Positions 13,562 to 34,984 of a DNA stretch of 34,984 bases are shown piece after piece (position 1 is the stretch's first letter; every line of letters starts with the position of its first letter). The DNA is from Actinomycetota bacterium. Lineage in GTDB: Bacteria > Actinomycetota > Actinomycetes > JACCUZ01. The stretch spans positions 1 through 34,984 of the forward strand of contig JAVEDJ010000150.1 in NCBI GenBank assembly GCA_030841025.1, read 5' to 3'. The position numbers and the translations under genes were made by a program. Below the pieces are notes generated by a model. The model made no database searches. It saw nothing but the letters and a program-made list of their open reading frames with translations, and had not been told where the DNA came from.

Positions 13562-13606
13562 CGCGTGGAGCGGACGGGACATCGGTGGCAGCACGGTGAT
13601 CCGGGG

Positions 13607-15454
13607 ATGAGCGCTCACACCGCGCAGGAGCCGGCGACGGGATCTTCACGGGCGCGACCGTCCAGAGACCGACAGGACTACCGAGCCCTTCTCGGTCCCA
13701 TGGGTGGCGCGTTGCTGGCAGTCGCGGCTCTCTTGGCTTCCGGGCCGCTTCTCGGTGACTACGACAGAAGCATCCTTGTCCAGGGCATGCTCTTCGCAGT
13801 CGCAGCGGTCACGGTAGACATCCTCTGGGGTTACACCGGTGTCCTCAGCTACGCACAGTCGGTCTTCTTCGGGCTGGGCGCATACGGGCTTGCAATCTAC
13901 TCTGTGGAGTTCGGGTTCAGCTGGACAGGCGCAGTCATTGCGATCGTGCTCAGTGCCGTCGCGGCCTGCGTCGTGGCTCTGCTGCTTGGTCTGCTCTCGT
14001 TCCACTCAAAGGCAGACTGGCTGTACGTCGCGACGGTCACCTTCGCCGCGACGTTTGCCTTCGAGAAGGTCATCCTTGCCGGTGGCTCCCTGACCGGGTC
14101 CAGCAGCGGGCTCTCCGGGTTCGTCCTGCAACCTGTGGGTATCGCCGATGGCTATCGGCTCAGCGGTCTGCTGCTCATCGCGGTGACACTCGGCGCCTGT
14201 CTGCTCGTTCGATCCGACGCAGGACGCGTGATGCGGGCCATCCGCGAGAACGAGGGGCGCAGCCAGTATCTGGGAATCCGCGTCCACAGAGTAAAGATCC
14301 TGCTGTTCGCCGTAGCGGCGTGCGTCGCAGCCATCGCGGGGTCGCTCTACGCAACGACGCAGAACGTGGTCGCCCCAGACCTGGGGGGCTTCCAGCTCGG
14401 AACAGCCATGGTGATCTGGGCCGCTGTGGGGGGCCGCGGCACCCTACTGGGGCCCGTAGGCGCCGCCATCGGCATCAATCACCTGAATGCCTACCTCAGT
14501 GGATCAATACCGTTTCTTTGGCAACTGGTCCTCGGCCTGGTATTCGTCTTGGTCGTCACCTACGCCCCGGGCGGCGCCGCCTCACTCATAGGCTTTCCGA
14601 TTCGCTGGCTCCAGTCCAAGCTTCGCGTGCCTGGCGGCTCAATGCCGGGTGGCCTGCTGACCGTCGTACCGCACATGAAGGCGCACGAGGCTTCGGCACG
14701 GACAACGCGGCCGTTGTTGGAGGTCACCGATGTCTCCCGCAGCTTTGGGAGCTTTCACGCCGTCAAGGCCGTGGCCCTCGCGGCGGACGGCGGTGAGATC
14801 GTCAGCATCGTGGGGCCGAACGGCGCCGGCAAGAGCACGTTCATGAGGTGCATCAGCGACGGTGGTTACCGCACCTCCGGATCGGTGCGCGTGGCCGGCA
14901 GCGACATAGGGCGACTGACGCCTGATGTGATCTCCAGGCTCGGAGTAGGTCAGAAGTTCCAGACCGCGAGCGTGTTCGCGTCACTGAGCGTCTTTGAGTG
15001 CCTCAGCGTCGCGACTCGTGCGCGTCGGCCGTCAATCTGGAGGCGTACGTCGCAGCTGGAGATCCCCGCTCCAGCGTTTGAAATCATCCAGATGACCGGA
15101 CTGGACCGACTCCTTCACCACACCGTCTCCGGCCTGTCGCATGGTCAGAAGCAGTCGCTGGAGCTGGCCATGGTGATGTGCACGGAGCCTCGCGTGATCC
15201 TGCTCGACGAGCCAACCGCTGGCCTGTCCCAGACCGAACGAGCCGCCATCGGCGCTGTACTGCGAAAGATCGCGACCGATCATCTGGCTCTGCTGATTCT
15301 CGTTGAGCACGACCTCGACTTCGTGCAAGAGATCAGCTCGCGTGTGCTCGTCCTGCACCACGGGGAGCTCCTGATGGATGGCACCGTCAGCGAAGTGGTG
15401 TCGTCTGAGCTGGTCCAGGAGATCTACACCGGCTCACCGGCGGGAATGGAATGA
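13607..15454 (+). CDS. Fused ABC transporter permease-ATPase (LivM-LivG)
   Basis: N-terminal LivM domain (LWGYTGVLSYAQSVFFGLGAYGLAIY) continuous with C-terminal ATPase (IVGPNGAGKSTFMRC, LSHGQKQSLELAM, VILLDEPTAGLS). Confidence 0.92.
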   Translation: MSAHTAQEPATGSSRARPSRDRQDYRALLGPMGGALLAVAALLASGPLLGDYDRSILVQGMLFAVAAVTVDILWGYTGVLSYAQSVFFGLGAYGLAIYSVEFGFSWTGAVIAIVLSAVAACVVALLLGLLSFHSKADWLYVATVTFAATFAFEKVILAGGSLTGSSSGLSGFVLQPVGIADGYRLSGLLLIAVTLGACLLVRSDAGRVMRAIRENEGRSQYLGIRVHRVKILLFAVAACVAAIAGSLYATTQNVVAPDLGGFQLGTAMVIWAAVGGRGTLLGPVGAAIGINHLNAYLSGSIPFLWQLVLGLVFVLVVTYAPGGAASLIGFPIRWLQSKLRVPGGSMPGGLLTVVPHMKAHEASARTTRPLLEVTDVSRSFGSFHAVKAVALAADGGEIVSIVGPNGAGKSTFMRCISDGGYRTSGSVRVAGSDIGRLTPDVISRLGVGQKFQTASVFASLSVFECLSVATRARRPSIWRRTSQLEIPAPAFEIIQMTGLDRLLHHTVSGLSHGQKQSLELAMVMCTEPRVILLDEPTAGLSQTERAAIGAVLRKIATDHLALLILVEHDLDFVQEISSRVLVLHHGELLMDGTVSEVVSSELVQEIYTGSPAGME

Positions 15455-20217: not shown

Positions 20218-21289
20218 GCGTCTGCTCCTGCCGGCTTGGGCGGTGTTCGCAGGCGCCAACGCAGCACTCATGTATGTCGTGCCCGGCGCCGAGACGATCC
20301 CCTTTCACTTCGCCTGGGTGAGCACCGCGCTCGCCTATGGCCTCCGCCCGTGGTCCTTGCGCTACATGTGGGTCACGTGTGCGGCGGTGACGATCGCAAC
20401 CGGAGTCCCGCTCGTACGCGACGCGAATGCTGGAGTCATCGGTTGGCAGGAGACCACCGAGATCCCGCTCATGGCGCTCCTGTTCCTTGTCATGGTCTGG
20501 CACGTTCGCCGACGCATGGCTGCCACCGCCGAGGCGTGCCGGCTGGCGGAGGTCGAACGCCAGGGCCGCGAGGCGCAACGCCGCTTCGTCCGCTTTGCCT
20601 CACACGAGCTGCGTACGCCCATTACGGTGGCGCGGGGTTTCACCGAGCTGCTTCGTGAGGCGCACTCCGAGCATCGGGCGGAAGCCGACATTGACGTCGT
20701 GCTCGATGAGCTGGACAAGCTCGAAGCAATCGCGGCGAGGCTGCTCGCCCTCGCTCAATCCGACGAGGTCGCCCTGAACTGTGAGGAGATCGACCTCGCA
20801 GCTCTTCTCGAGCGAACCGTGCACCGATGGCGCGGGGCCTCGCCGCGTCGGAGCTGGATCGTCGACTGCTCCCAAGTCTCGCTCCAGGCAGATCCGCAGC
20901 GCCTGGAGGTGGCCAGCGACAGCGTGGTGGAGAACGCCGTCCGGCACACCGGCGACACGGGCAGAGTGATCCTGCGTGGGACCGCCCGCGGCCAGGTGGT
21001 TGTGCTCGAGGTCGAGGATGACGGGGACGGCATTGCCGTGTCCGAGCTACCGCGGGTCTTCGAGGGCTTTCACAGCGCGGGACCGCACGCTGGTACCGGG
21101 CTGGGACTGGCAATCGTCAAGGCGGTGGCAGGGGCACATGGCGGCACGGTGTGTGCGGCGAACGGCAGGAACGGCGGCGCCGTCATCAGCCTGATACTGC
21201 CCGTCGGCCGGGCGCTACCTCAGCGGGCAGCGTTGGCTGCGCGCAGCCGCTCATGGGTGCCGCCCATCGCTGTGGCGCCGCGCAGGTAG
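20192..21289 (+). CDS. Membrane sensor histidine kinase
   Basis: N-terminal TM region; HisKA RRFVRFASHELRTPITVARGFTELL; HATPase VVENAVRHTGDTG, DDGDGIAV, GTGLGLAIVKAVAGAHGG. Overlaps the response regulator end (start could also be GTG 20210). Confidence 0.9.
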   Translation: MWATASVRERLLLPAWAVFAGANAALMYVVPGAETIPFHFAWVSTALAYGLRPWSLRYMWVTCAAVTIATGVPLVRDANAGVIGWQETTEIPLMALLFLVMVWHVRRRMAATAEACRLAEVERQGREAQRRFVRFASHELRTPITVARGFTELLREAHSEHRAEADIDVVLDELDKLEAIAARLLALAQSDEVALNCEEIDLAALLERTVHRWRGASPRRSWIVDCSQVSLQADPQRLEVASDSVVENAVRHTGDTGRVILRGTARGQVVVLEVEDDGDGIAVSELPRVFEGFHSAGPHAGTGLGLAIVKAVAGAHGGTVCAANGRNGGAVISLILPVGRALPQRAALAARSRSWVPPIAVAPRR

Positions 21290-22248
21290 CTCTTGGCCAT
21301 CTTGGCGACGACCGTGTAGTTGGTGTCCACAACGTTGGCTATAGGTGTGAGGGCCGTCTGCGACACCAGCTGGTAGGCGTCCATCGCCGACAGCCGGGTC
21401 AGCTCGCGTACCCAGCCGACGAGCTCCGTGTGGGCGATGCGGAAGGCATCCTCGAGCGGTCGCGCGGAGCCGGCCGTCATGATGAACTCGTCGTCTTCGA
21501 GCCGCGGCCATGCGGTGGGCGGGAGTCCCTTGATGACGTCGACCACCAGTTCGGTGTCCATGGCGCACTCGACGGCGACGCCACAGGTCTCGCCCTCCCC
21601 CTGCCGTGCGTGACCGTCCCCGAGGCTGAACAGGGCGCCCTCGACGTTGACGCCGAGGTAGCAGGTGGTGCCGGCCCGCATCTCGGGCGTGTCCATGTTG
21701 CCACCCCACTGGCCCGGCGTGAGCGCGGACCGCACCTCGCCGAGAGCCGGCGCGACACCCACGGTCCCGTGCATGGGGTCGAGCGGGAGGTCGACCTGGA
21801 ACACTGAGTCGAGCGCGTCGTAGCGCACGACTCCGGCCGCCTGGTCGATCTCATAGACCCAGGTCCGTTCGGGGAGCGGGTCGTGGAGCATCGCAGTGAG
21901 GTTCGTCGCGGTGAGCGATCCGAACAGCGGCACGGTGGTGCTGACGCCGCGACCGCCGCGCGGAACGATGCGGCGGAAGTGCACGGCGAGCGTGTCTCCT
22001 GGTTGCGCACCCTCGACGAAGAACGGCCCGGTCTGCGGGTTCAGGAACCGTGGGTCGCAGACCTCCGACACGAGGTCGGCCGTGGAGCGGACTCGCCCTG
22101 CGAAGCAGTCCATCGTCCAGGTGGAGATGACCGTGCCCGGCCGGACGCTGACCAGCGGCGCGAATCCCCCGAAGGTATAGGCGAGCGCCGCGGGGTCGCC
22201 GTCCGAGTCGGGCTCGAAGCGCAACACGTCATGGGCCGTCGTGCTCAC
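21220..22248 (-). CDS. Acetamidase/formamidase family protein
   Basis: VSVRPGTVISTWTMDCF, QPGDTLAVHFRRIVPRG, GNMDTPEMRAGTTCYLGVNVEGALFSLGDGHARQGEGETCGVAVECAMD. GTG start at 22248. Confidence 0.92.
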   Translation of the reverse strand: MSTTAHDVLRFEPDSDGDPAALAYTFGGFAPLVSVRPGTVISTWTMDCFAGRVRSTADLVSEVCDPRFLNPQTGPFFVEGAQPGDTLAVHFRRIVPRGGRGVSTTVPLFGSLTATNLTAMLHDPLPERTWVYEIDQAAGVVRYDALDSVFQVDLPLDPMHGTVGVAPALGEVRSALTPGQWGGNMDTPEMRAGTTCYLGVNVEGALFSLGDGHARQGEGETCGVAVECAMDTELVVDVIKGLPPTAWPRLEDDEFIMTAGSARPLEDAFRIAHTELVGWVRELTRLSAMDAYQLVSQTALTPIANVVDTNYTVVAKMAKSYLRGATAMGGTHERLRAANAAR

Positions 22249-22268
22249 GTGCGGTCCTCCAGAACCAG

Positions 22269-22309
22269 GGACGGCAGGGGCAGGGGCCGGAGCCCTGCCC
22301 CCGCCGTCC
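22269..22309. terminator. Strong intergenic hairpin between APC permease and acetamidase genes (terminator/attenuator)
   Basis: 17-nt arms GGACGGCAGGGGCAGGG (22269-22285) / CCCTGCCCCCGCCGTCC (22293-22309), one mismatch, 7-nt loop; no clear U-tract. Confidence 0.5.
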
Positions 22310-22330
22310 GACGGGTCGGTGCTGTGCGGT

Positions 22331-23974
22331 CTAGGTGTGTGGGCCGCCCTGCGCGGGGACGCCGTCACGGGCGTGCGTCTCCTCGAACACGGTCCGACCG
22401 ATCGCGTCGTACACCGGTCGGTTGCGCGACTTCAACCACATCACGGCTAGCAGGCCCACCACGAACGTGAGGACCACGATGTACGGGATCGCCGTGAAGA
22501 ACGGGGCGGACGACGCAGCCCCGCCGGCGAAGTCGATGTTGTCCAGCAGCAGCCAGACGACGTACACCATTCCGAGACCGCCCAACGCCGGGATGATGCC
22601 CGTGGTCAGGATGTTGCCCGGCGCCGCCTTCTTCACGTGGAAGTACCAGATCACTGCCAGCGACGTGATCGCCTGCACGATCAGGATCGCCATGGTGCCC
22701 AGGATGGCAAGCAGCCCGTACTGGTAGAGGTAGGCACCGCGAAGCGGGTCGTCGCCGTTCGTGGTCAGCAGGTAGAAGCCGATGGTCAGCACCAGGGTGA
22801 TCCCGCTCTGCACCATCGACGAGACGTGCGGTGTCTGGTGGGTGCCGTGCGTGCGGCCGAGGTTGTTCTTGGTGGCCGGCACCTCGCGGCCGATGGCGTA
22901 GAGGTAGCGGCTCGCGGCGTTGTGGAACGCCAGCGCGCACGCGAACGATCCGATCATGATCAGGGCGAGGTAGATGTCCCCGATGAACGCGCCACCGAGC
23001 TTGTCCTTGGCCAGGTCGACCCACAGCCCGATCGAGTCGGTGTTGGCCTTCTCGATCGACTGGGCCTTGCCGTTGCCGGCGATCATCATCCAGGACACGA
23101 ACGTGTAGAACAGGCCCAGCCCGACGACTGCGATCAAGGTCGCGCGAGGAACGATGTGCTTGGGGTTACGCGACTCCTCGCCGTAGACCGCTGTCGTCTC
23201 GTAGCCGACCCAGGACCAGAAGGCGAAGAAGAGACCGATAGCCCCGCTGCCTGCCGCGACCGCCTTGCCGTCGATGACCGCCCCGATGCCGCCGCCGCCC
23301 GTCTCGAGCGACTTGAAGGCGTTCAGCGGGTTGACGGCCTCCGCAACCAGCCCGTCCGGCCCGCCGCCACTGAACAGGACCGACAGAGCCAGCGCACCGA
23401 GCAGCAGCACCTCGGCGACAAGGGTCACTCCGAGGACTGCGGCGGCGATGCTGATGTCGAAGTAGCCGAAGAGGCCGACGACGATGATGCCGATGACGGC
23501 CAGTACCAACCAGTTGACGTCCCAGCCGAACCAGGTGTTGAGGGCGCTGTTGCTGAAGTAGGCGAAGATGCCGATGAGGGAGCCCTCGAACACGACGTAC
23601 GCCATCGTGGCGAGTGCGCCCGATGCCATTCCCCACACCTGACCGAGCCCGTGGGTGATGAAGCCGTAAAACGCGCCGGCAGTCGTGATGTAGCGAGCCA
23701 TCGAGACGAACCCGACGGTGAACAGGGTCAGCACGATGGTGGCCACCAGGAAGCCCGCCGGAGCACCGATGCCGTTGCCGTAGCCGACCGCGATCGGCAC
23801 GTTCCCGGTCATCGCGGTGATCGGCGCCGCGTTGGCGACGGCCATGAACAGCACGCCCATCAGGCCGACGGCCCCGGGTTTGAGTCCATGGCCACGCTCG
23901 ACCGGGCGTGTGTCGGTGCCCTGCGGCTGGGCCTCCCGGCTCAGTTCGTCACTGGTTGCCACGTTTGTCTCCAT
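22331..23974 (-). CDS. APC-superfamily amino acid/amine permease
   Basis: 547-aa polytopic protein; GLMGVLFMAVANAAPITAMTGNVPIAVGYGNGIGAPAGFLVATIVLTLFTVGFVSMARY and about 12 hydrophobic segments. Confidence 0.92.
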   Translation of the reverse strand: METNVATSDELSREAQPQGTDTRPVERGHGLKPGAVGLMGVLFMAVANAAPITAMTGNVPIAVGYGNGIGAPAGFLVATIVLTLFTVGFVSMARYITTAGAFYGFITHGLGQVWGMASGALATMAYVVFEGSLIGIFAYFSNSALNTWFGWDVNWLVLAVIGIIVVGLFGYFDISIAAAVLGVTLVAEVLLLGALALSVLFSGGGPDGLVAEAVNPLNAFKSLETGGGGIGAVIDGKAVAAGSGAIGLFFAFWSWVGYETTAVYGEESRNPKHIVPRATLIAVVGLGLFYTFVSWMMIAGNGKAQSIEKANTDSIGLWVDLAKDKLGGAFIGDIYLALIMIGSFACALAFHNAASRYLYAIGREVPATKNNLGRTHGTHQTPHVSSMVQSGITLVLTIGFYLLTTNGDDPLRGAYLYQYGLLAILGTMAILIVQAITSLAVIWYFHVKKAAPGNILTTGIIPALGGLGMVYVVWLLLDNIDFAGGAASSAPFFTAIPYIVVLTFVVGLLAVMWLKSRNRPVYDAIGRTVFEETHARDGVPAQGGPHT

Positions 23975-24225
23975 CCGGATGCTTGTGATGAGCCCCGTTC
24001 CGAGGGACGAGTGTCGCCCTCGGGTGTTTCCGGCCCGAAAAGTCGGCGAAACGAACCGATTGCGGGACGAGGTTAGTTATGGCAGCAGACAGCTCCTCGT
24101 GTGACCGGCGCCACATGAGCGCATCGTTGCAGCGGGGATGACCGCTGACAAGCACTTCGCCAAAATCGGCCAGTCTCGCGATAGCGGACCGTTGACCGGA
24201 CCGGTTGCGAACTGCTAGAAACCAT

Positions 24226-24259
24226 TATGCAGACCAAATATCGATTCGGTATGCAGACC
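24226..24259. promoter_or_regulatory. Candidate GntR operator: 10-bp direct repeat in the divergent permease/aminotransferase intergenic region
   Basis: TATGCAGACC at 24226-24235 and 24250-24259 (24-bp period). The second lies in GGTATGCAGACC, a near-palindrome (GGTNTGCANACC). Confidence 0.5.
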
Positions 24260-24303
24260 TGGTACGCCGGTTCTGCCGGCCGTCCAGTCGGCGAGGTGCC
24301 GTG

Positions 24304-25605
24304 ATGAGCTTCGACTACGGCGAGTTCTCCTTCGCGTCCAAGGAGGAGATGCTCGAGAAATCCCGCGAGTACTGGAACCCCGGCAAGACCGACTTCTGGG
24401 TCGAGACCGGTGTGCCATTGGTCATCGACCGCCGGGAGGAGTACTTCATCTACGACATGTCGGGCAAGCGTCTGCTCGACGTTCATCTCAACGGAGGCAC
24501 GTTCAACCTCGGTCACCGCAACGGCGAGATGGTGCAGGCCGTGACGCAGGCCATGGCCCATTTCGACATCGGCAACCACCACTTCCCCTCGCTGGCCCGC
24601 ACGGCTCTGGCCGAGGCCCTCGTACGCACGGCTCCCGACGGCCTGACCAAGGTGGTCTACGGCAGCGGCGGCGGTGAAGCCATCGACATCGCCATCAAGA
24701 CGGCGCGACACGCCACCCAGAGGCGCAAGGTCGTCTCGATCGTGAAGGCGTACCACGGCCACACCGGTCTGGCAGTGGGCACCGGCGACGACCGGTTCAG
24801 CAAGCTCTTCCTGGCCGACCGGCCGGAGGAGTTCCCGCACGTGCCGTTCAACGACCTGGCCGCCATGGAGGACGCGCTGCGCGGTCGTGACGTCGCCGCC
24901 GTGATCATGGAGACGATCCCGGCTACCTACGGCTTCCCGCTGCCCGATGCCGGCTACCTCGAAGGCGTCAAGAACCTCTGCGAGCGGTACGACGCGCTCT
25001 ACATCGCCGACGAGGTGCAGACGGGGTTGATGCGCACCGGTGAGTTGTGGGCCATCACCAAGCACGGCATCGCGCCGGACATCCTGGTCACCGGCAAGGG
25101 CATCTCCGGCGGCATGTACCCGATCTCCGCGGTGTTGGTCAGCGAGCGGGCGGCTGGGTGGCTCACCGAGGACGGCTTCGGCCACATCTCGACCTTCGGG
25201 GGTGCCGAGCTGGGCTGCATCGCCGCGCTCAAGGCGCTCGAGATCTGCAACCGGCCCGAGACCCGCTCGATGGTGCACTACATCAGCGACCTCGTCGGCA
25301 GCGGCCTTCGTGAGATCCAGTCCGACTACCCCGACTGGTTCGTCGGGATCCGCCAGAACGGCGTCGTCATGGGCTTGGAGTTCGCCCATCCGCAGGGGGC
25401 GAAGTACGTCATGCGCCATCTCTACGAGAACGGCGTGTGGGCGATCTTCTCCACCCTGGACCCGCGGGTTCTCCAGTACAAGCCGGGCATCCTGATGCGC
25501 CCCGAGCTGTGCGAGGAGCTGCTCGACCGCACCGAGGTGGCGATCCGCAAGGCGTGGGCCGAGGTCCGGAACACGTCGCGTGCGGGCGAACGGGTGCCCG
25601 CATGA
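24304..25605 (+). CDS. Class-III aminotransferase-fold PLP enzyme of RMM-type BMC (probable amino-alcohol-phosphate phospho-lyase or aminotransferase)
   Basis: YGSGGGEAIDIAIKTAR, SIVKAYHGHTGLAVGTGDDRFSK, LYIADEVQTGLMRTGELWA, PDILVTGKGISGGMYPISA (PLP Lys). First gene of BMC operon. Confidence 0.9.
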   Translation: MSFDYGEFSFASKEEMLEKSREYWNPGKTDFWVETGVPLVIDRREEYFIYDMSGKRLLDVHLNGGTFNLGHRNGEMVQAVTQAMAHFDIGNHHFPSLARTALAEALVRTAPDGLTKVVYGSGGGEAIDIAIKTARHATQRRKVVSIVKAYHGHTGLAVGTGDDRFSKLFLADRPEEFPHVPFNDLAAMEDALRGRDVAAVIMETIPATYGFPLPDAGYLEGVKNLCERYDALYIADEVQTGLMRTGELWAITKHGIAPDILVTGKGISGGMYPISAVLVSERAAGWLTEDGFGHISTFGGAELGCIAALKALEICNRPETRSMVHYISDLVGSGLREIQSDYPDWFVGIRQNGVVMGLEFAHPQGAKYVMRHLYENGVWAIFSTLDPRVLQYKPGILMRPELCEELLDRTEVAIRKAWAEVRNTSRAGERVPA

Positions 25606-27208: not shown

Positions 27209-27814
27209 GTGGCCGAGCTCAGGTCGTTCATCTTTCTCGACCAGCTGCAACCGCAGACCATGTGCTATCTCGGCAGCTGGATCAAGGGCAGCCTGCCGCG
27301 CTCCAACATGGCTGCGCAGATCATCGAGGTCGCGCCCGGGCTGGACATCGAGCAGATCACCGATGTCGCGCTGAAGAACACCGAGGTGCAGGCAGGCATC
27401 CTCGTGGTGGAGCGGCAGTTCGGCTATCTCGAGATCCACTCGCGCTCGACCGAGGCGGTCCGGTCGGCCAGTGCCGCTGTGCTCGACGCCTTGGACGCGA
27501 GCGCCTCGGACGCGATGCGGCCAACGGTCCTGGCCTCGCAGGTCGTCTCGCGCATTGATGCCCAGCACGCGTTCCTCATCAACAGGAACAAGGTCGGCTC
27601 GATGGCGCTGCCCGGCGAGTCGTTGTTCGTCCTGGAGATGCAGCCGGCGTCGTACGCGATCCTCGCCACCAACGAGGCCGAGAAGGCCGCGGCCATCAAG
27701 GTCGTGGACTACCGCATGATCGGCGCGACCGGACGGGTCTACCTGACCGGCCGTGAGTCCGACGTGCGCGCCGCGGCCGAGGCTGCCGAGACGGCGTTGC
27801 AGGTGCGGACATGA
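27209..27814 (+). CDS. BMC shell protein, permuted tandem BMC-T (EutL-like topology), copy 1
   Basis: LQPQTMCYLGSWIKG, IEVAPGLDIEQITDVALKNTEVQAGILVVERQFGYLEIHS; second domain VLEMQPASYAILATNEAEKAAAIKVVDYRMIGATGRVYLTG. GTG start. Confidence 0.9.
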   Translation: MAELRSFIFLDQLQPQTMCYLGSWIKGSLPRSNMAAQIIEVAPGLDIEQITDVALKNTEVQAGILVVERQFGYLEIHSRSTEAVRSASAAVLDALDASASDAMRPTVLASQVVSRIDAQHAFLINRNKVGSMALPGESLFVLEMQPASYAILATNEAEKAAAIKVVDYRMIGATGRVYLTGRESDVRAAAEAAETALQVRT

Positions 27815-28281
27815 ACAGCGGCAACGGCGCCCTGTCGGGGATGTCGACCGAGGATCTGCGGGCCGCGGTGCGCGCGGTGCTGCGGGACGTGCTCCCCGCT
27901 GCGCTCACCGACGCCGGGCGCAGTCCGACTCCGGGCGGGACCGCCGAACAGGTCGACATGCGTAGCGACGCGGATCTGGATGCATTCGTACGACGGCTGG
28001 CGGTGCTGTGTGAGGACCCGGGACAGCGAGCCGCCCTGCGCGAGGGGCGGACTCGGTTCCGTCTCGGAACGGGGGCCCCGACCGCCTCCGGTGCCCGTGA
28101 GCACCCGGCGCCGCAGCCGGGCGGCGTGCTGCGGGTGGAACAGGGTGCCGTCACCGAACGCCGGGTCAAGCAGGCCGCAGCCCAGGGTGCGCGACTGGTC
28201 GTCGGCAGCAAGGCCGTGCTGACGCCGTTGGCCCGGGACAAGGCACGAGCCCTCGGGGTCGTCGTGGAGAAGGAGCGCTGA
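27811..28281 (+). CDS. Small BMC-locus protein: N-terminal encapsulation-peptide-like helix, linker, C-terminal EutQ-N-like motif
   Basis: N-term STEDLRAAVRAVLRDVLPAALTDAG (amphipathic) then Pro/Gly-rich linker; C-term GAVTERRVKQAAAQGARLVVGSKAVLTPLARDKARALGVVVEKE resembles the EutQ N-terminal ...ASIITPEAREVAELLGF motif. Confidence 0.75.
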   Translation: MNSGNGALSGMSTEDLRAAVRAVLRDVLPAALTDAGRSPTPGGTAEQVDMRSDADLDAFVRRLAVLCEDPGQRAALREGRTRFRLGTGAPTASGAREHPAPQPGGVLRVEQGAVTERRVKQAAAQGARLVVGSKAVLTPLARDKARALGVVVEKER

Positions 28282-28530: not shown

Positions 28531-28818
28531 ATGAGCAACGAGGCGATCGGGATGATCGAGACAAAGGGTTACGTGGCCGCGTTGGCCGCCGCAGACGCCA
28601 TGGTGAAGGCCGCGAACGTGAGCATCATCGGGCGACAGGAGGTCGGTGACGGCCTGGTCGCCGTGACGATCGTCGGTGACGTCGGTGCGGTGAAGGCGGC
28701 GACCGAGGCCGGAGCCGAGACGGCCGGCCAGGTCGGCGAGCTCGTGTCCGTGCACGTCATCCCGCGTCCGCACGCCGAGCTGTCGAGGCACTTCGACACG
28801 GCCGGGTCCGAGGGGTGA
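28531..28818 (+). CDS. BMC-H hexameric shell protein
   Basis: [63 protein letters not shown], canonical BMC domain. Confidence 0.97.
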
Positions 28819-29495
28819 CGACCGGTCCCACGACGCCGGCCACCGCCGGCGTACCCCTCCCGCCGCGTCCTGAGCTGCGGGTCTACCTCCTGGTTGAGGA
28901 CCTGCAGCCGCAGTTCGCCGCCTACCTCGGGACGCCGACCCGTGCTCGCGGTTACCCGCCGTTCGCCGGCCAGCACTCGCTCATCGTGGAGGTGGCGCCA
29001 GGCCTGGCGATCGAGCGCGTCACCGACCTCGCCCTACGCACCGTCCCGGCGGTGGAGCCAGGAATCCTGTTCGTCGAGCGCCAGTTCGGCGTGCTGGAGG
29101 TGCACGCCACGCGGCTTGATGATCTCAACCGGGCCGGGGCCGCGATCCTGGAGGGTCTCGGTGCCAGTCCCACAGATCAGCTGCGGCCGCGAGTTCTCTA
29201 CACCGACGTGATCGAGGACGTCACCGACCAGCACGCGGTCATCATCAACCGCAACCGGCAGGCGTCCATGCTCATGCCGGGCCAGAGCCTGCTCGTCCAC
29301 GAGATGACGCCGGCCTTGTTCGCGACCGTTGCCGCAAACGCTGCCGAGAAGGTGTCGCCACGTGCGACGCTCGTCGACGTGTCCATGATCGGTGCGGCGG
29401 GTCGGGTCTACCTGGCCGGCTCCACCGAGGACGTGCTGCGCGCGCAGGACGAGATCACTCGGGTGCTTCGCGAGGTGGAGGGGCGGGACCACTGA
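28815..29495 (+). CDS. BMC shell protein, permuted tandem BMC-T (EutL-like topology), copy 2
   Basis: [78 protein letters not shown]; paralogous to 27209..27814. GTG start overlaps stop of BMC-H. Confidence 0.9.
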
Positions 29496-30505
29496 TGAGC
29501 GTGCACGACCTGTCCGCAGAGGACGTCGCCGCGCGGCTCGAGCCGGTCGCCCGGCGGGCGCTGACGGAGTTCGGCGTCGCGCCGGATGCCACGTTGACGC
29601 TGCTCAACGTCAGCGAGAACGCCACCTATGCCGTCGATGATGCTGCCTCCGGCCAGCGGACAGTCCTGCGGGTTCATCGCCACGGTTACCACGACGCGGC
29701 AGAGATCGTCTCCGAGCTCGCGTGGTTGGACGCCCTGCGTGCGGAGGCGGACGTCCGCACCCCGCGGGTGCTGCCGACGGTCGACGGCCGGCGGCTGCTC
29801 GCGATGCCCGAGGCTGGCTCGCCCGACCCGCGCTACGTCGTGCACTTCGAGTGGCTCCCCGGCACCGAGCCGACGCCGACCGACGACCGGTTGCCCCAGT
29901 CGTTCGAGCTGCTCGGCGCCATCACCGCGCGGATGCACGAGCACGTGCAGACCTGGCAGAAACCCCAGGGCTTCCACCGCTTCGCGTGGGACTACGACGG
30001 TTCGTTCGGCACCATGGCCAGGTGGGGCCGCTGGCAGGACGGCATCGCGGTCGGCCCCGCGGAGCGCGAGGTGCTCGGCCGGCTGGACGCGACGCTGCGC
30101 GAACGGCTGGCGAGGTTCGGCTCCGGACCGGCCCGCTACGGCTTGGTGCACGCCGACATGCGGCTGGCCAACCTGCTCGCGGACGGCGACCAGACCTACG
30201 TCATCGACTTCGACGACTGCGGGTGGGGATGGCTCCTCTACGACTTCGGGTCCGCCGTCAGCTTTTTCGAGCACGACCCCCGGGTACCGGAGCTGGCGGA
30301 CGCCTGGGTGCGTGGCTACCGCACCGTGCGGCCGCTCTCTGCGGACGACGAGGCCGAGCTCCCCACGTTCGTGATGATGCGCCGTCTGCTGCTCGTGGCT
30401 TGGATCGGCTCGCACTCAGGCACCGACCTGTCCCGGTCGATGGGAGCCGCCTACACGGCCGGCAGCGCAGATCTCGCCGAGGACTATCTCTCGCGCTTCG
30501 GCTGA
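29495..30505 (+). CDS. APH-type kinase of RMM-type BMC (probable 1-amino-2-propanol/amino-alcohol kinase)
   Basis: [43 protein letters not shown]; catalytic loop [37 protein letters not shown] (DFG-like). TGATG overlap with BMC-T. Confidence 0.9.
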
Positions 30506-30513
30506 CCAGCCAC

Positions 30514-30553
30514 GCCGGACAGGTAACGCCGGCACAGGTCAGGCCGGACAGGT
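30514..30553 (+). repeat. Three short imperfect tandem repeats between kinase and SDR genes
   Basis: GCCGGACAGGT (30514-30524), GCCGGCACAGGT (30528-30539), GCCGGACAGGT (30543-30553), period 14-15 bp. Confidence 0.6.
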
Positions 30554-30578
30554 GCAGCACCGACAAGGAGGAGGCAGG

Positions 30579-31361
30579 GTGTTCACACGGCTGGATGGTC
30601 GCTCGGTCATCGTGACCGGTGGCAGCAAGGGCATCGGCAAGGGCATCGCCCGGGTCTTCGCGCGCGCCGGCGCGCAGGTGCTGCTTGCCGCGAGGGACGA
30701 GGCGGCTCTCACGGCCGCGGCCGAGGACCTCGGCAAGGAGACGGGCGCGCGCATCGAGACCGTCGCTGCAGACGTCGCCAGCGTCGCCGACTGTCGGCGG
30801 ATCGCCGCGGCCGCCGTCGAGCAATTCGGCGGTGTCGACGTGCTCTGCGCCAACGCCGGTGTCTTCCCGGACAAGCCGCTGGCCCAGCTGACCGAGGAGG
30901 ACGTCGACGCCGTCTTCAACTGCAACGTCAAGGGCACCATGTTCATGGTCCAGGCCTGCCTTGCGGCTCTCGAGGCGAGCGGTCACGGCCGGGTGGTCAT
31001 CACCTCGTCCATCACCGGTCCGATCACCGGTTACCCCGGCTGGTCGCACTACGGCGCGAGCAAGGCCGCGCAGCTCGGCTTCCTGCGCACGGCAGCGATC
31101 GAGCTGGCACCGAAACGCATCACTGTCAACGCGGTACTGCCCGGCAACATCGCCACGGAGGGCCTCGCGGACATGGGTGAGGACTACCGTCGCGGGATGG
31201 AGGCCGCCATCCCCCAGCGCCGCCTCGGAGAGGTCGAGGACATCGGCTACGCCGCTCTCTTCTTCGCCACGGACGAGGCCAGCTACATCACGGGGCAGTG
31301 CATGGTCGTGGACGGCGGCCAGATCCTGCCCGAGTCGCCGGCGGCGCTCGAGGGGATCTGA
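30579..31361 (+). CDS. Short-chain dehydrogenase/reductase of RMM-type BMC (probable aminoacetone/amino-alcohol oxidoreductase)
   Basis: TGGSKGIG cofactor motif, CANAGV (NAG), SS...YGASK catalytic motif. GTG 30579 start after AAGGAGGAGG. Confidence 0.92.
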
Positions 31362-31373
31362 CCAGGTGGCGCG

Positions 31374-32174
31374 GTGACCGAGACCGGGATTGTCATTGGG
31401 CCGGCAGCAGAGGACACCCGTCGTCGGCTGCTGGACCAGATCAGTCGCGGCCAGCTGCGCCCGGGGGAGCGGCTGGGGGCCGAGCGCGACCTCGCCCAAG
31501 CGCTCGGCGTGAGTCGCTCGACGGTGCGTCAGGCCCTGGCCGCCCTCGAAGCAGCAGGCGTCGTACGGCGGGTCCCGGGTCGCGGTGGCGGCACGTTCGT
31601 CCGCCAGCAGAAGGTCGAGCGGGACCTCTCCCAGGTCGTCGGGGTACCTGCCCTGTTGCGGCAGCAGGGCATGACGGCCGGCTCCCAGGTCGTGAGCACC
31701 GGGCTCGGCCTCGCGGACGAGGAGACTGCGACCGCTCTCGGGCTGCCGGCTGATGGCTACGTGATCGACGTGGTGCGCATCAGGTTGGCCGACGGCACGC
31801 CCATCTCGCTCGAACACGTCCGGCTGCCCGCCCAGCTGTTCCCCGGCCTGCTCGACCTGCCTCTCGGCGGATCGCTCTACGAGCTGCTGCAGGAGTACTT
31901 CGGCACGGTCCCCGGCGAGGCGGTGGAGCACATCGAGGTCGTCTCCGCGGCTGAGGACGAGGCGTCCATCCTCGGCGTGGAGGCGGGCGCGGCACTCCTG
32001 TCCATCACGCGCACGACCAAGGACGCCGCCGGCAGTCCATTCGAGTTCTCGCATGACCTCTTCCGCGCTGACCGGACGTTCATCACCGTGCGCACACCGG
32101 CGTCGACCGGCGCCCGGAAGGGTTCCGCGGAGCACGGCCGGGTGGTCCAGATGCGCCCGCGACCACGGCGGTGA
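31374..32174 (+). CDS. GntR-family regulator, HutC/UTRA subfamily
   Basis: LLDQISRGQLRPGERLGAERDLAQALGVSRSTVRQALAALEAAGVVRRVPGRGGGTFV wHTH; UTRA-type C-terminal domain. Confidence 0.93.
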   Translation: MTETGIVIGPAAEDTRRRLLDQISRGQLRPGERLGAERDLAQALGVSRSTVRQALAALEAAGVVRRVPGRGGGTFVRQQKVERDLSQVVGVPALLRQQGMTAGSQVVSTGLGLADEETATALGLPADGYVIDVVRIRLADGTPISLEHVRLPAQLFPGLLDLPLGGSLYELLQEYFGTVPGEAVEHIEVVSAAEDEASILGVEAGAALLSITRTTKDAAGSPFEFSHDLFRADRTFITVRTPASTGARKGSAEHGRVVQMRPRPRR

Positions 32175-32851
32175 CTGCGACGGCGCTCGTCATCGCCAAC
32201 TCGACCGACTCCGACTCCGGCTACGTGGGTGAGCGTCTGACCGAGCGCGGTTACCTCCTGCGCACGTTGCTGCGGGACAAGGGCGAGGTGCCGTACGACG
32301 TCGCGGACGCGGGTGACGTCGACGTCGTACTGCTGCTCGGCTCCGAGTGGTCGGTGCACTCACCCGTGGACCACGAGTCGCTTGCTGCCGAGTGTGCGCT
32401 CGCTCGGTCGGCCCGCGACGCGGGTGTGCCGGTGCTGGGCCTCTGCTACGGCGCCCAGGTCTTGGCGGAGGCGCTCGGGGGCAGCGTCTCGCCGGCGCCG
32501 CAGCCGGAGGTCGGCTGGGTGCACGTCGAGTCAGACGATGAACAGCTGGTGCCGGTCGGGCCCTGGCTGGCGTTCCACCTCGACGTGGTGCAGGCACCTC
32601 CCGGCGCGCGTGTGGTGGCGCGGAACGGCTGTGGGCAGCAGGCGTTCGTGTTCCCCGGTGTGCTGGGCGTGCAATTCCATCCCGAGGTCCGGCCCGAGAC
32701 CTTGGACAGCTGGGCAGGTCGCTTCCCGGAGCTCCTCGTCGGCGCCGGCCTTCGCCGCGAGGAGCTCGTTGCCGAGGCACGGGCGCGCGAGTCACAGGCC
32801 AGAGCCGCCGCGCACGCGTTGGTCGACGCCTTTCTGGACCGTGTCGCCTAG
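32171..32851 (+). CDS. Class I glutamine amidotransferase-like protein
   Basis: Nucleophile elbow VPVLGLCYGAQVLAEALGG, catalytic His/Glu in GVQFHPEV; 4-bp overlap with GntR gene. Confidence 0.88.
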   Translation: MTATALVIANSTDSDSGYVGERLTERGYLLRTLLRDKGEVPYDVADAGDVDVVLLLGSEWSVHSPVDHESLAAECALARSARDAGVPVLGLCYGAQVLAEALGGSVSPAPQPEVGWVHVESDDEQLVPVGPWLAFHLDVVQAPPGARVVARNGCGQQAFVFPGVLGVQFHPEVRPETLDSWAGRFPELLVGAGLRREELVAEARARESQARAAAHALVDAFLDRVA

Positions 32852-34506
32852 CGCGCCAGCCCGCACAGCAACCCGTAGGCCACGGCGTACCGGTGACCGA
32901 GTGAGCCGGCGACGTTGCCACGACCCACTGCGACTCCCTCGGGGAGCGCCCGGGCGACCGCCGCCAGCACCTCGTCGTCGCCCGCCGGACCGCCGACGAC
33001 GACGACGGTCCCCGGTGCCACGTCCAGGCTGCGCAGCGAGCGAGCCACGTTCCCGCCAAGCAGCTCGACCTTGAGCCGCAGCCGGAGCGCGCGCCACTCA
33101 CCGGGTGCGAGGGTCCGGTGGAACGCCAGCAGCCCGGCCGGTCCGCGCACCACGAGGGCCCCCATCGCCTCCGCAGGCGCCGGAACGTCCAGGAACGCGC
33201 GCGAGCCGTCCTCGGCCAGCAGCACCTGTGGGGCCTCGACGCGGTGTGCGGGCCCGCGTTTGACCCACTCGGCGGCTGCGTTCGACGCACCCGTGAGCAT
33301 CGCGACCGACACGGTCAGCAGCTCGCCGCCACCAGCCGCGACGACCGCCGCCGAGCGCGACACGGTGTCGACGGTCCCGCCGCCCAGGTCGATGACCACG
33401 GCATCGCCTGCACCCGGAGTGGAGGTCGCGCCGCTCCACGCGGCCCGAGCCTCCGACCCGGCGACCTCGACCGGAACCCCCAGCCGTTCGGCAAGTGCCG
33501 CGCCCGGGTCGGCGTACGGCGCGTCGGCGTGCAGCACGGCCAGCCCGATGGCCCGCGACTGCGCGACACCCACCCGGGTCATGACTGTGTCGGCCACGGC
33601 CGACAGGTCAACGGTCCACAGGTCGTCGACCGGCCGAGGATCCTGCTGGGGTGGAACGGCGTAGGACCGCGCGGCCCCGACGAGCCCGGCGCGGATGGCC
33701 TCGTGCCCGGCCGCGAAAGACAGCCGGCTGCCGCCGACGTCCACCCATCCGGCCGTCTGCGTGCCTGCAGCTGCGGCCGCCGGGCCGAGGGCGACCACTG
33801 CGTTGGAGGAGTCGTAGAGCCGTGCTGCGACCCGCGCCGCGTCGGCCCGCTCGTGGTCGTGCAGCTGGAGCGCGTCGGCCAGTCGAAGCGGGTCGGTCAG
33901 CACGCGCAGCGGGTGTCCGGCGGCGGCTACCTCGACCGCGACCAACCCGGCGCGGAGCACCTCGTCGCCGTCGACCTCGTCGACCACCGGCACCTGGTCG
34001 CCCAGCCGGTTGCCGACCAGCACCGCCTCGTCGTCCTCCAGCACGACGGCGGCGAGACGCCCGTCCGAGGCGAGGCCGCGCAGCTGCTCGACGGCCTCGA
34101 GGTAGCCGGTGCCGGCGGCCACGACGACGACCAGGGGATCGTTGCCCTCCGCGACGTCACCGAGTCGGTGCGGGCGCCCCACGCCGTGGCCGCCGCCGCC
34201 CGCTGTGCTGACGCCGGCGCTGACGACACGCAGCCGCCCGGTAGCTGCATGGGGTTCCGGCAGTGTTGCCGTCCGGGTGAGGACCGGTCGCAGGTGGGCC
34301 GCTGCCGCCAGGTCGATGCGCAGCTGGTGTGTCCGCTCCAGCCGGTGGACCAGAGCGGCCGCACCGTCGAGGCTTTGTGGCGAGCCCTTCGTCCGCCGCG
34401 TCGGCGTTCGGCCGGTGCAGAGGACCTCGATGCCATCGGGGGTGAGCCGACCGATCACGACCTCGGTGCTCGAGTTGCCGATGTCGATGCCTGCGGCGAC
34501 CGTCAC
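32848..34506 (-). CDS. Diol/glycerol dehydratase reactivase, large subunit (PduG/DdrA-like)
   Basis: N-term AGIDIGNSSTEVVIGRL; VVLEDDEAVLVGNRLGDQVPVVDEVD; VVIDLGGGTVDTVS; C-term VAVGRGNVAGSLGHRYAVAYGLL, matching remembered PduG motifs. Confidence 0.92.
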   Translation of the reverse strand: MTVAAGIDIGNSSTEVVIGRLTPDGIEVLCTGRTPTRRTKGSPQSLDGAAALVHRLERTHQLRIDLAAAAHLRPVLTRTATLPEPHAATGRLRVVSAGVSTAGGGGHGVGRPHRLGDVAEGNDPLVVVVAAGTGYLEAVEQLRGLASDGRLAAVVLEDDEAVLVGNRLGDQVPVVDEVDGDEVLRAGLVAVEVAAAGHPLRVLTDPLRLADALQLHDHERADAARVAARLYDSSNAVVALGPAAAAAGTQTAGWVDVGGSRLSFAAGHEAIRAGLVGAARSYAVPPQQDPRPVDDLWTVDLSAVADTVMTRVGVAQSRAIGLAVLHADAPYADPGAALAERLGVPVEVAGSEARAAWSGATSTPGAGDAVVIDLGGGTVDTVSRSAAVVAAGGGELLTVSVAMLTGASNAAAEWVKRGPAHRVEAPQVLLAEDGSRAFLDVPAPAEAMGALVVRGPAGLLAFHRTLAPGEWRALRLRLKVELLGGNVARSLRSLDVAPGTVVVVGGPAGDDEVLAAVARALPEGVAVGRGNVAGSLGHRYAVAYGLLCGLAR

Positions 34507-34859
34507 CGCAGCAGACCGCGCCGGACGTACACGTCGGCGGCTTCACGCACGAGGGCAGCGGACAGCGGCGCGGGGTACGCCTCGAGCCGGCGGGCCAGCA
34601 GCTCCAGCTCCTCGGCGGTCGAGCGATGCGGGCGCAGCGCCTCGTACATCGACATGACCTCTGCCTCGGGCACCAGCGCCAGCTCGGCCGCGCGGCGGAA
34701 GTTCGCCGCGAGCTGCGGATTGCCGTGCTGCTCGGCCACCTGTGCCTGCAGCTCGAGAGTCTCGGGATGGATGCGTACGTCGTCGGTGTCCAGCTCTTCG
34801 CGGGCCAGCCGGTCGGGGGTCAGCTCGCTGGCGTCCCGCCCCGAGAAGGCGCGGGTCAC
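34503..34859 (-). CDS. Diol/glycerol dehydratase small subunit (PduE-like)
   Basis: DVRIHPETLELQAQVAEQHGNPQLAANFRRAAELALVPEAEVMSMYEALRPHRSTAEELELLARRLEAYPAPLSAALVREAADVYVRRGLL closely parallels PduE. GTG start. Confidence 0.95.
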   Translation of the reverse strand: MTRAFSGRDASELTPDRLAREELDTDDVRIHPETLELQAQVAEQHGNPQLAANFRRAAELALVPEAEVMSMYEALRPHRSTAEELELLARRLEAYPAPLSAALVREAADVYVRRGLLR

Positions 34860-34984
34860 AACGTCACCTCGATGTCCTCGTTGCCCAGTGCCCGGTCGAC
34901 GCAGCCCCGTTCCAGCGCCACGAGAGCGATCACGCTGGTGTGGTAGCGCGCCTCGATCGCCTCGTCGGTATAGGGGTTGCGCGC
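34856..34984 (-). CDS. Diol/glycerol dehydratase medium subunit, C-terminal fragment (gene continues beyond window)
   Basis: Reverse-strand frame ARNPYTDEAIEARYHTSVIALVALERGCVDRALGNEDIEVTL*, overlapping the small-subunit start (TTGTGA); C-terminus resembles PduD. Confidence 0.75.
   Translation of the reverse strand, partial: ARNPYTDEAIEARYHTSVIALVALERGCVDRALGNEDIEVTL

Follow-up and report, generated by a model that had tools for sequence, protein, structure and literature searches.

Gene content of the locus

The window, i.e., the whole stretch of 34,984 nucleotides analysed here, is the complete contig C342 of a 4.09-Mb genome in 433 contigs. Toward its right end, two sets of genes face each other (Table 1). 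The plus strand carries an operon of the RMM type of microcompartment (BMC), and the RMM core set is complete, with a class-III aminotransferase, an aldehyde dehydrogenase (AldDH), BMC-H, BMC-P and BMC-T shell proteins, an APH kinase, an SDR, a GntR regulator and the permease. Since the first BMC-T protein is closest to MSM0275 of Mycobacterium smegmatis, the RMM assignment holds. We take 6ci8/6ci9, the nearest structures to the SDR, as those of the aminopropanol dehydrogenase from the M. smegmatis RMM, which their record name does not state. Besides AldDH, the scan of the window proteins turned up no obvious PTAC and no alcohol dehydrogenase that could recycle cofactors.

The 156-aa protein has no Pfam or NCBIfam match. 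It carries the conserved C-terminal motif VTERxVkqAaxxGArLVxGxxAVLTPLARDxAR, occurs in most RMM shell loci and was not detected in the shell-less ones described below. It is a candidate cargo protein without a characterised family. Elsewhere in the window (13565-15454), branched-chain-type ABC permease and ATPase domains are fused in one 629-aa frame, with a second ATPase, an isochorismatase-type hydrolase and an IclR regulator downstream.

Table 1 Features of the RMM operon, its divergent genes and the convergent dehydratase genes in the window
Feature	Position	Strand	Basis or remark
FmdA/AmdA-type amidase	21220..22368	-	In other families the dehydratase operon lies directly after FmdA
APC-type amine/amino-acid permease, divergent from the RMM operon	22331..23974	-	
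Putative amino-alcohol-phosphate lyase, class-III aminotransferase fold	24205..25605	+	Start probably near 24304
CoA-acylating AldDH, C-terminal encapsulation-peptide-like helix	25580..27205	+	
BMC-T shell protein	27209..27814	+	Best PDB match RMM shell protein MSM0275 (5l39), 5.5e-91
156-aa protein, probable cargo	27811..28281	+	N-terminal encapsulation-peptide-like helix STEDLRAAVRAVLRDVL
BMC-P (pentamer) shell protein, 79 aa	28281..28520	+	Assigned from position, size and conservation
BMC-H shell protein	28531..28818	+	PF00936, 1.3e-25
Second tandem-domain (BMC-T) shell protein	28815..29495	+	45-50% identity to the other BMC-T in relatives; no Pfam match of its own
APH-fold amino-alcohol kinase (by homology)	29495..30505	+	Best PDB match 6ef6, 6e-103
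SDR	30552..31361	+	Best PDB matches 6ci8/6ci9, other SDRs next
GntR/UTRA regulator of the RMM operon	31374..32174	+	Pfam
Glutamine amidotransferase, class-I, last gene of the plus-strand operon	32171..32851	+	PF00117, layouts; only in part of the window-family loci
Reactivase large subunit (DdrA/PduG-like)	32848..34506	-	Pfam PF08841 (DDR) + PF18427 (DDR_swiveling)
Dehydratase small subunit, 118 aa, without N-terminal extension	34503..34859	-	PF02287 (Dehydratase_SU), relatives
3' end of fused large+medium dehydratase subunit (whole about 745 aa)	34856..34984	-	Rest on contig C32 (L002:2-2005)

The original prediction placed a B12-type dehydratase cluster on the opposite strand, and the Pfam matches together with the C-terminus of the medium subunit confirm these genes. 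The frame at 34859-34984(-), ARNPYTDEAIEARYHTSVIALVALERGCVDRALGNEDIEVTL, corresponds to the last 42 codons of the medium-subunit domain. With the continuation on contig C32, large-, medium- and small-subunit domains are all found, as expected of the dehydratase family. The TIGR04491 PduG model gives the reactivase 183.6 bits, under its cut-off of 400.

The large subunit, expected beyond base 34984, is indeed found on C32, in the only large-subunit gene of the genome. There it runs into the medium-subunit domain with no stop between, and an HbpS-like gene is upstream. In all the complete relatives, 105 bp separate the codon of the fused-subunit gene at the end of C32 from the one that opens the window fragment, so C32 is the continuation of the window after about 105 missing bases. 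Thus, as read from the two contigs, the operon order is HbpS, fused large+medium subunit, small subunit and reactivase, with about 105 bp unsequenced between the contigs. Further out on C32, a ROK-family regulator and a xylulokinase (L002:2585-5323) adjoin the dehydratase operon. The additional pdu genes expected beyond the window were not found on C32.

The combination itself is not new. Axen et al. 2014 (PMC4207490) split RMM loci by diol dehydratase genes, which are absent in RMM1 and present, on the opposite strand, in RMM2. The list of Sutter et al. 2021 (PMC8217296) includes RMM2 too, with outlying members from other phyla. The window has its diol dehydratase genes on the opposite strand and is a member of this RMM2 type, known since 2014. 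The assumption that a diol dehydratase is foreign to the standard RMM set was therefore wrong, because it is what defines RMM2.

The convergent junction

The stop codons of the glutamine amidotransferase and the reactivase share CTAG, which gives the predicted 4-bp overlap. An intrinsic terminator, whose absence had also been claimed, was not found at 32300-33400, nor was a sigma-70-type promoter, a result of little weight in a high-GC actinobacterium. The overlap was considered as a conserved regulatory feature and rejected, as relatives have overlaps of 4-40 bp or gaps of 365 or 2817 bp. The plus-strand operon meets the reactivase through the glutamine amidotransferase, which is not a core RMM gene and occurs in only part of the convergent-layout loci.

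Because the two sets are convergent, the dehydratase and RMM genes are not co-transcribed in the window. A simple palindrome search recognised no GntR operator shared between the divergent promoter region of the RMM genes and the upstream region of the dehydratase in convergent loci. A cobalamin riboswitch had been anticipated, and Rfam matched nothing except tRNAs in the window, C32 and seven relatives. For the suggested link through the cobamide precursor 1-amino-2-propanol phosphate, no cobamide genes were seen in the locus.

Co-occurrence and linkage in relatives

The original prediction called for a survey of RMM shell and dehydratase genes. Among 40 relatives, the reactivase is present in all nine BMC-positive genomes and in none of the 31 BMC-negative ones, so that no genome has one alone. 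In 297 genomes of the class, 14 have both, 6 have a BMC only, 4 have the reactivase only and 273 have neither (Fisher p = 3e-16, without phylogenetic correction). The six BMC-only genomes comprise three with plain RMM1 (G050, G089, G290), one with an RMM-like variant and two with other BMC types.

Using the fused subunit as the query and one genome per species, we retrieved 78 loci, and counted the 75 with a substantial match. RMM or pathway genes adjoin the dehydratase at 67 of the 75, in at least four layouts. Shell genes are present at 42, and another 25 have kinase, lyase, SDR or GntR genes or the permease and FmdA. The remaining eight show none of these; five of these are on contigs of at most about 5 kb, and in one the contig breaks inside the dehydratase gene. 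The possibility that the adjacency is unique to one genome is clearly false.

Layout A is the convergent one of the window family, Nocardioides and relatives. Layout B is the commonest among the other loci (L005/L006, L009, L034, L051 and many more). Here one strand carries the permease, FmdA, HbpS and dehydratase genes in this order, spaced as in an operon, and the lyase, AldDH and shell genes diverge from them. In layout C (L032, L036, L069, L085, L096) the dehydratase follows GntR on the same strand, with a gap of -1 to about 100 bp in L032, L036 and L085. In layout E, found in Gammaproteobacteria (L076/L134-L135), the order is dehydratase, ABC transporter and then a complete RMM operon with SDR, kinase, lyase, AldDH and shell. 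In the majority of loci, the dehydratase is thus part of the permease-FmdA operon or placed directly behind the RMM operon in the same orientation. The shared transcription that is missing from layout A is supplied by layouts B and C. On a tree of the fused subunits, the layout label has to change 11 times. The linkage persists through these rearrangements, which argues against accidental proximity; since dehydratase and shell genes travel together through them, they probably work together.

Five of the RMM2 loci are in MAG records labelled Spirochaetaceae or Bifidobacterium breve (L017, L055, L059, L071, L082). They are near-identical to, or nested among, those of other Actinomycetes, and L017 equals G007 of the window family. 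From these sequences, the labels are probably wrong.

Versions of the pathway without a shell

Six loci, L027 (Paractinoplanes), L028 (Dactylosporangium), L033 (Thermocatellispora), L044, L054 (Trebonia) and L057, are in genomes with no BMC domain genome-wide, and keep the kinase, phospholyase, SDR and GntR genes adjoining the dehydratase. The tree forces at least three changes for the shell-less state, which occurs in at least three lineages. The AldDH of L033 is without the C-terminal helix found on complete shell-linked AldDHs. Since the pathway genes are kept without the shell, the partner of the dehydratase is the amino-alcohol module rather than the shell itself.

A search for close RMM2 relatives on plasmids gave none above 60% identity. 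It yielded Rhizobiaceae plasmids with a distant fused dehydratase (about 50% identity) in an operon without a shell. In L110 and L111, from Agrobacterium cucumeris and Shinella plasmids, the genes are an ABC transporter, the fused dehydratase (with Asp301), an SDR, a phosphotransferase, a class-III aminotransferase and GntR. These two operons have no reactivase gene nearby.

Packaging and reactivation

Neither the small nor the fused subunit has a targeting extension like the encapsulation peptides of PduD and PduE at its N-terminus. The small subunit has nothing ahead of its core fold, and the medium subunit continues from the large one in a single chain. No targeting peptide is therefore visible, and the N-terminal targeting peptide that PDU systems have on the medium subunit is absent. 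The proposed co-packaging of the dehydratase in the shell is accordingly unsupported. Encapsulation-peptide-like helices are present at the C-terminus of AldDH and the N-terminus of the 156-aa protein. The phospholyase has no clear encapsulation peptide either, so the missing peptide does not discriminate, and we set it aside as proof of a cytosolic enzyme.

There is one PF02288 (medium-subunit-type) domain per RMM2 genome, and there are two in a genome with a canonical reactivase. The second reactivase subunit (DdrB/PduH) is therefore absent from the genome, and the two-part PduG and PduH reactivase of PDU systems is not found here. With a fused large+medium chain and the reactivase large subunit alone, reactivation by the DdrB subunit swap is not possible in its usual form. 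All seven genomes checked encode a corrinoid adenosyltransferase.

The active-site pocket and the substrate

The catalytic and metal-site residues of the Klebsiella enzymes (Gln141, His143, Glu170, Glu221, Gln296, Asp335 and Ser362) are kept, whereas the C3 subsite is non-canonical. Every linked-clade sequence covering the site has Asp in place of Ser301 and Ala in place of Gln336. Outside the linked clade, Asp is found with Asn or Thr (G158, G488, Rhizobiaceae) or with Ala (L087). We treat Ser301 and Gln336 as a mark of propanediol/glycerol specificity, not of family membership. In the S301A/Q336A double mutant of the Klebsiella enzyme, the Km for 1,2-propanediol is 40-fold higher (PMC7674605). 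Since both residues are replaced clade-wide, 1,2-propanediol, which the original prediction assumed, is a doubtful substrate, and judging from the pocket the substrate is probably not plain 1,2-propanediol.

The enzyme could nevertheless be a conventional 1,2-propanediol/glycerol dehydratase, forming a second PDU-like entry that would deliver propionaldehyde to the shared AldDH. This is the version of the original prediction and the bifunctional alternative of Axen et al. The conserved catalytic and metal-site residues agree with it, and Paracoccus yeei, which carries RMM2, grows on propylene glycol (PMC8156839). The growth is weak evidence, however, because its authors ascribe it to oxidation to pyruvate, with no pdu operon (PMC5773746). 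Against this reading are also the changed pocket and the fact that the linkage tracks the amino-alcohol genes even without a shell, and we consider it possible but doubtful.

An acid at position 301 would suit a cationic group at C3. The substrate may thus be one with such a group near C3, for instance 3-amino-1,2-propanediol or a different amino polyol or amino alcohol, in which case amino compounds would come in by both entries of the module; the ammonium group would be bound by Asp301, in space left free by Ala336. In the pro-S pose of glycerol, the C3-OH lies opposite Ser301 (PMC7674605), the linked Actinomycete/Gammaproteobacteria clade has Asp301 throughout, and the adjoining transporters are an amine-type permease or ABC systems. 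Asp301 is also found in the separate Rhizobiaceae lineage (about 50% identity), which carries a kinase, a class-III aminotransferase and an SDR, though this may be shared ancestry. Since Asp301 also occurs where no amino-alcohol genes are nearby (G158, G488, L087), we regard the amino substrate as a tentative assignment, with less than an even chance of being right. In its fullest form, which we put forward with caution as somewhat improbable, the proposal makes the dehydratase an AdoCbl enzyme of its own kind, with an amino-bearing diol or amino alcohol as its substrate. It would pair a B12 route with an ATP/PLP route in one aldehyde module, with or without a microcompartment, and would have a one-part reactivase acting on a fused subunit.

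Discussion

By homology, which underlies all functional statements here, the convergent genes encode an AdoCbl-dependent dehydratase, made of a fused large+medium chain and a small chain, and its reactivase. We suggest that in this RMM2 locus the dehydratase probably joins the amino-alcohol kinase, phospholyase, SDR and GntR regulator in one catabolic module, as a second, B12-dependent aldehyde-forming entry that feeds AldDH. Its aldehyde product would be taken by the CoA-acylating AldDH, which would sit in the shell where a shell exists. From the sequences, we infer the enzyme activity, the sharing of AldDH and the co-regulation in the convergent layout.

The co-occurrence of BMC and reactivase in relatives, the linkage conserved across several layouts, the operon-like arrangement that most relatives show with the permease or the RMM genes, the link of dehydratase, kinase and lyase that persists after shell loss, and the Rhizobiaceae plasmid operons that join a fused dehydratase to pathway genes without a shell all favor this shared module. 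However, the genes are convergent in the window and no shared operator was recognised, though this is a weak test; RMM1 loci (G050, G089, G290) work without a dehydratase; kin dehydratases have no pathway nearby in G158 (Mycobacteriaceae-type), G488 and L087; and the dehydratase has no visible encapsulation peptide, which does not discriminate, since the phospholyase has no clear one either.

Axen et al. 2014 (PMC4207490) preferred the view that the RMM2 compartment probably does not use the dehydratase, with a bifunctional compartment as the alternative. The two would then be independent catabolic cassettes, co-inherited as carbon-source islands, with a cytosolic, unrelated dehydratase. The opposite strands in the window layout, the absence of the dehydratase from RMM1, the lack of an encapsulation peptide and the ROK regulator and xylulokinase that adjoin the dehydratase on C32 are in line with this. 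Nevertheless, the linkage has outlasted three or more rearrangements as well as shell loss, and the dehydratase is, at most loci, in one apparent operon with the RMM permease or with the RMM operon. We thus think independence unlikely, and favor a shared module.

The idea of two routes to one aldehyde is plausible and is backed by the conserved linkage, even though 1,2-propanediol is doubtful in view of the pocket and co-packaging is not supported. It cannot be presented as new, as the bifunctional idea and its alternative are already in Axen et al., and it is better supported here than in the original description. While those authors leaned against the RMM2 dehydratase belonging to the microcompartment, our survey leans the opposite way. 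The question is also sharpened, since the dehydratase is tied to the amino-alcohol pathway whether or not a shell is present, and the pocket points away from propanediol as the substrate. What the shell adds to the same pathway can be asked in natural pairs of shell-bearing and shell-less genera, i.e., Microbispora or Microtetraspora versus Thermocatellispora, and Nocardioides versus Dactylosporangium or Paractinoplanes.

Comparison with known systems

The naturally fused glycerol-dehydratase-like proteins of M. smegmatis and Mesorhizobium loti (PMC7674605) have the same large+medium fusion; the mycobacterial-type relative G158 has no RMM genes nearby. Like the window, PDU systems (PduCDE, PduGH) have an AdoCbl dehydratase and a reactivase near BMC genes and a CoA-acylating AldDH. 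They differ in the pocket residues of the dehydratase and in having a separate PduD with a targeting N-terminus, PduH, PduL and PduO, which are not seen here. The RMM1, AAUM or Aut loci of M. smegmatis and R. erythropolis share the permease, phospholyase, AldDH, shell set, kinase, SDR and GntR regulator, and their BMC-T protein MSM0275 is the closest to that of the window, but they have no dehydratase. The RMM2 loci of Axen et al. and Sutter et al. have both the RMM gene set and the opposite-strand diol dehydratase genes. RMM2 was described from very few genomes. The present study covers many more, including same-strand layouts and shell-less versions, and adds to the description the fused large+medium subunit, the Asp301/Ala336 pocket and a reactivase without DdrB.
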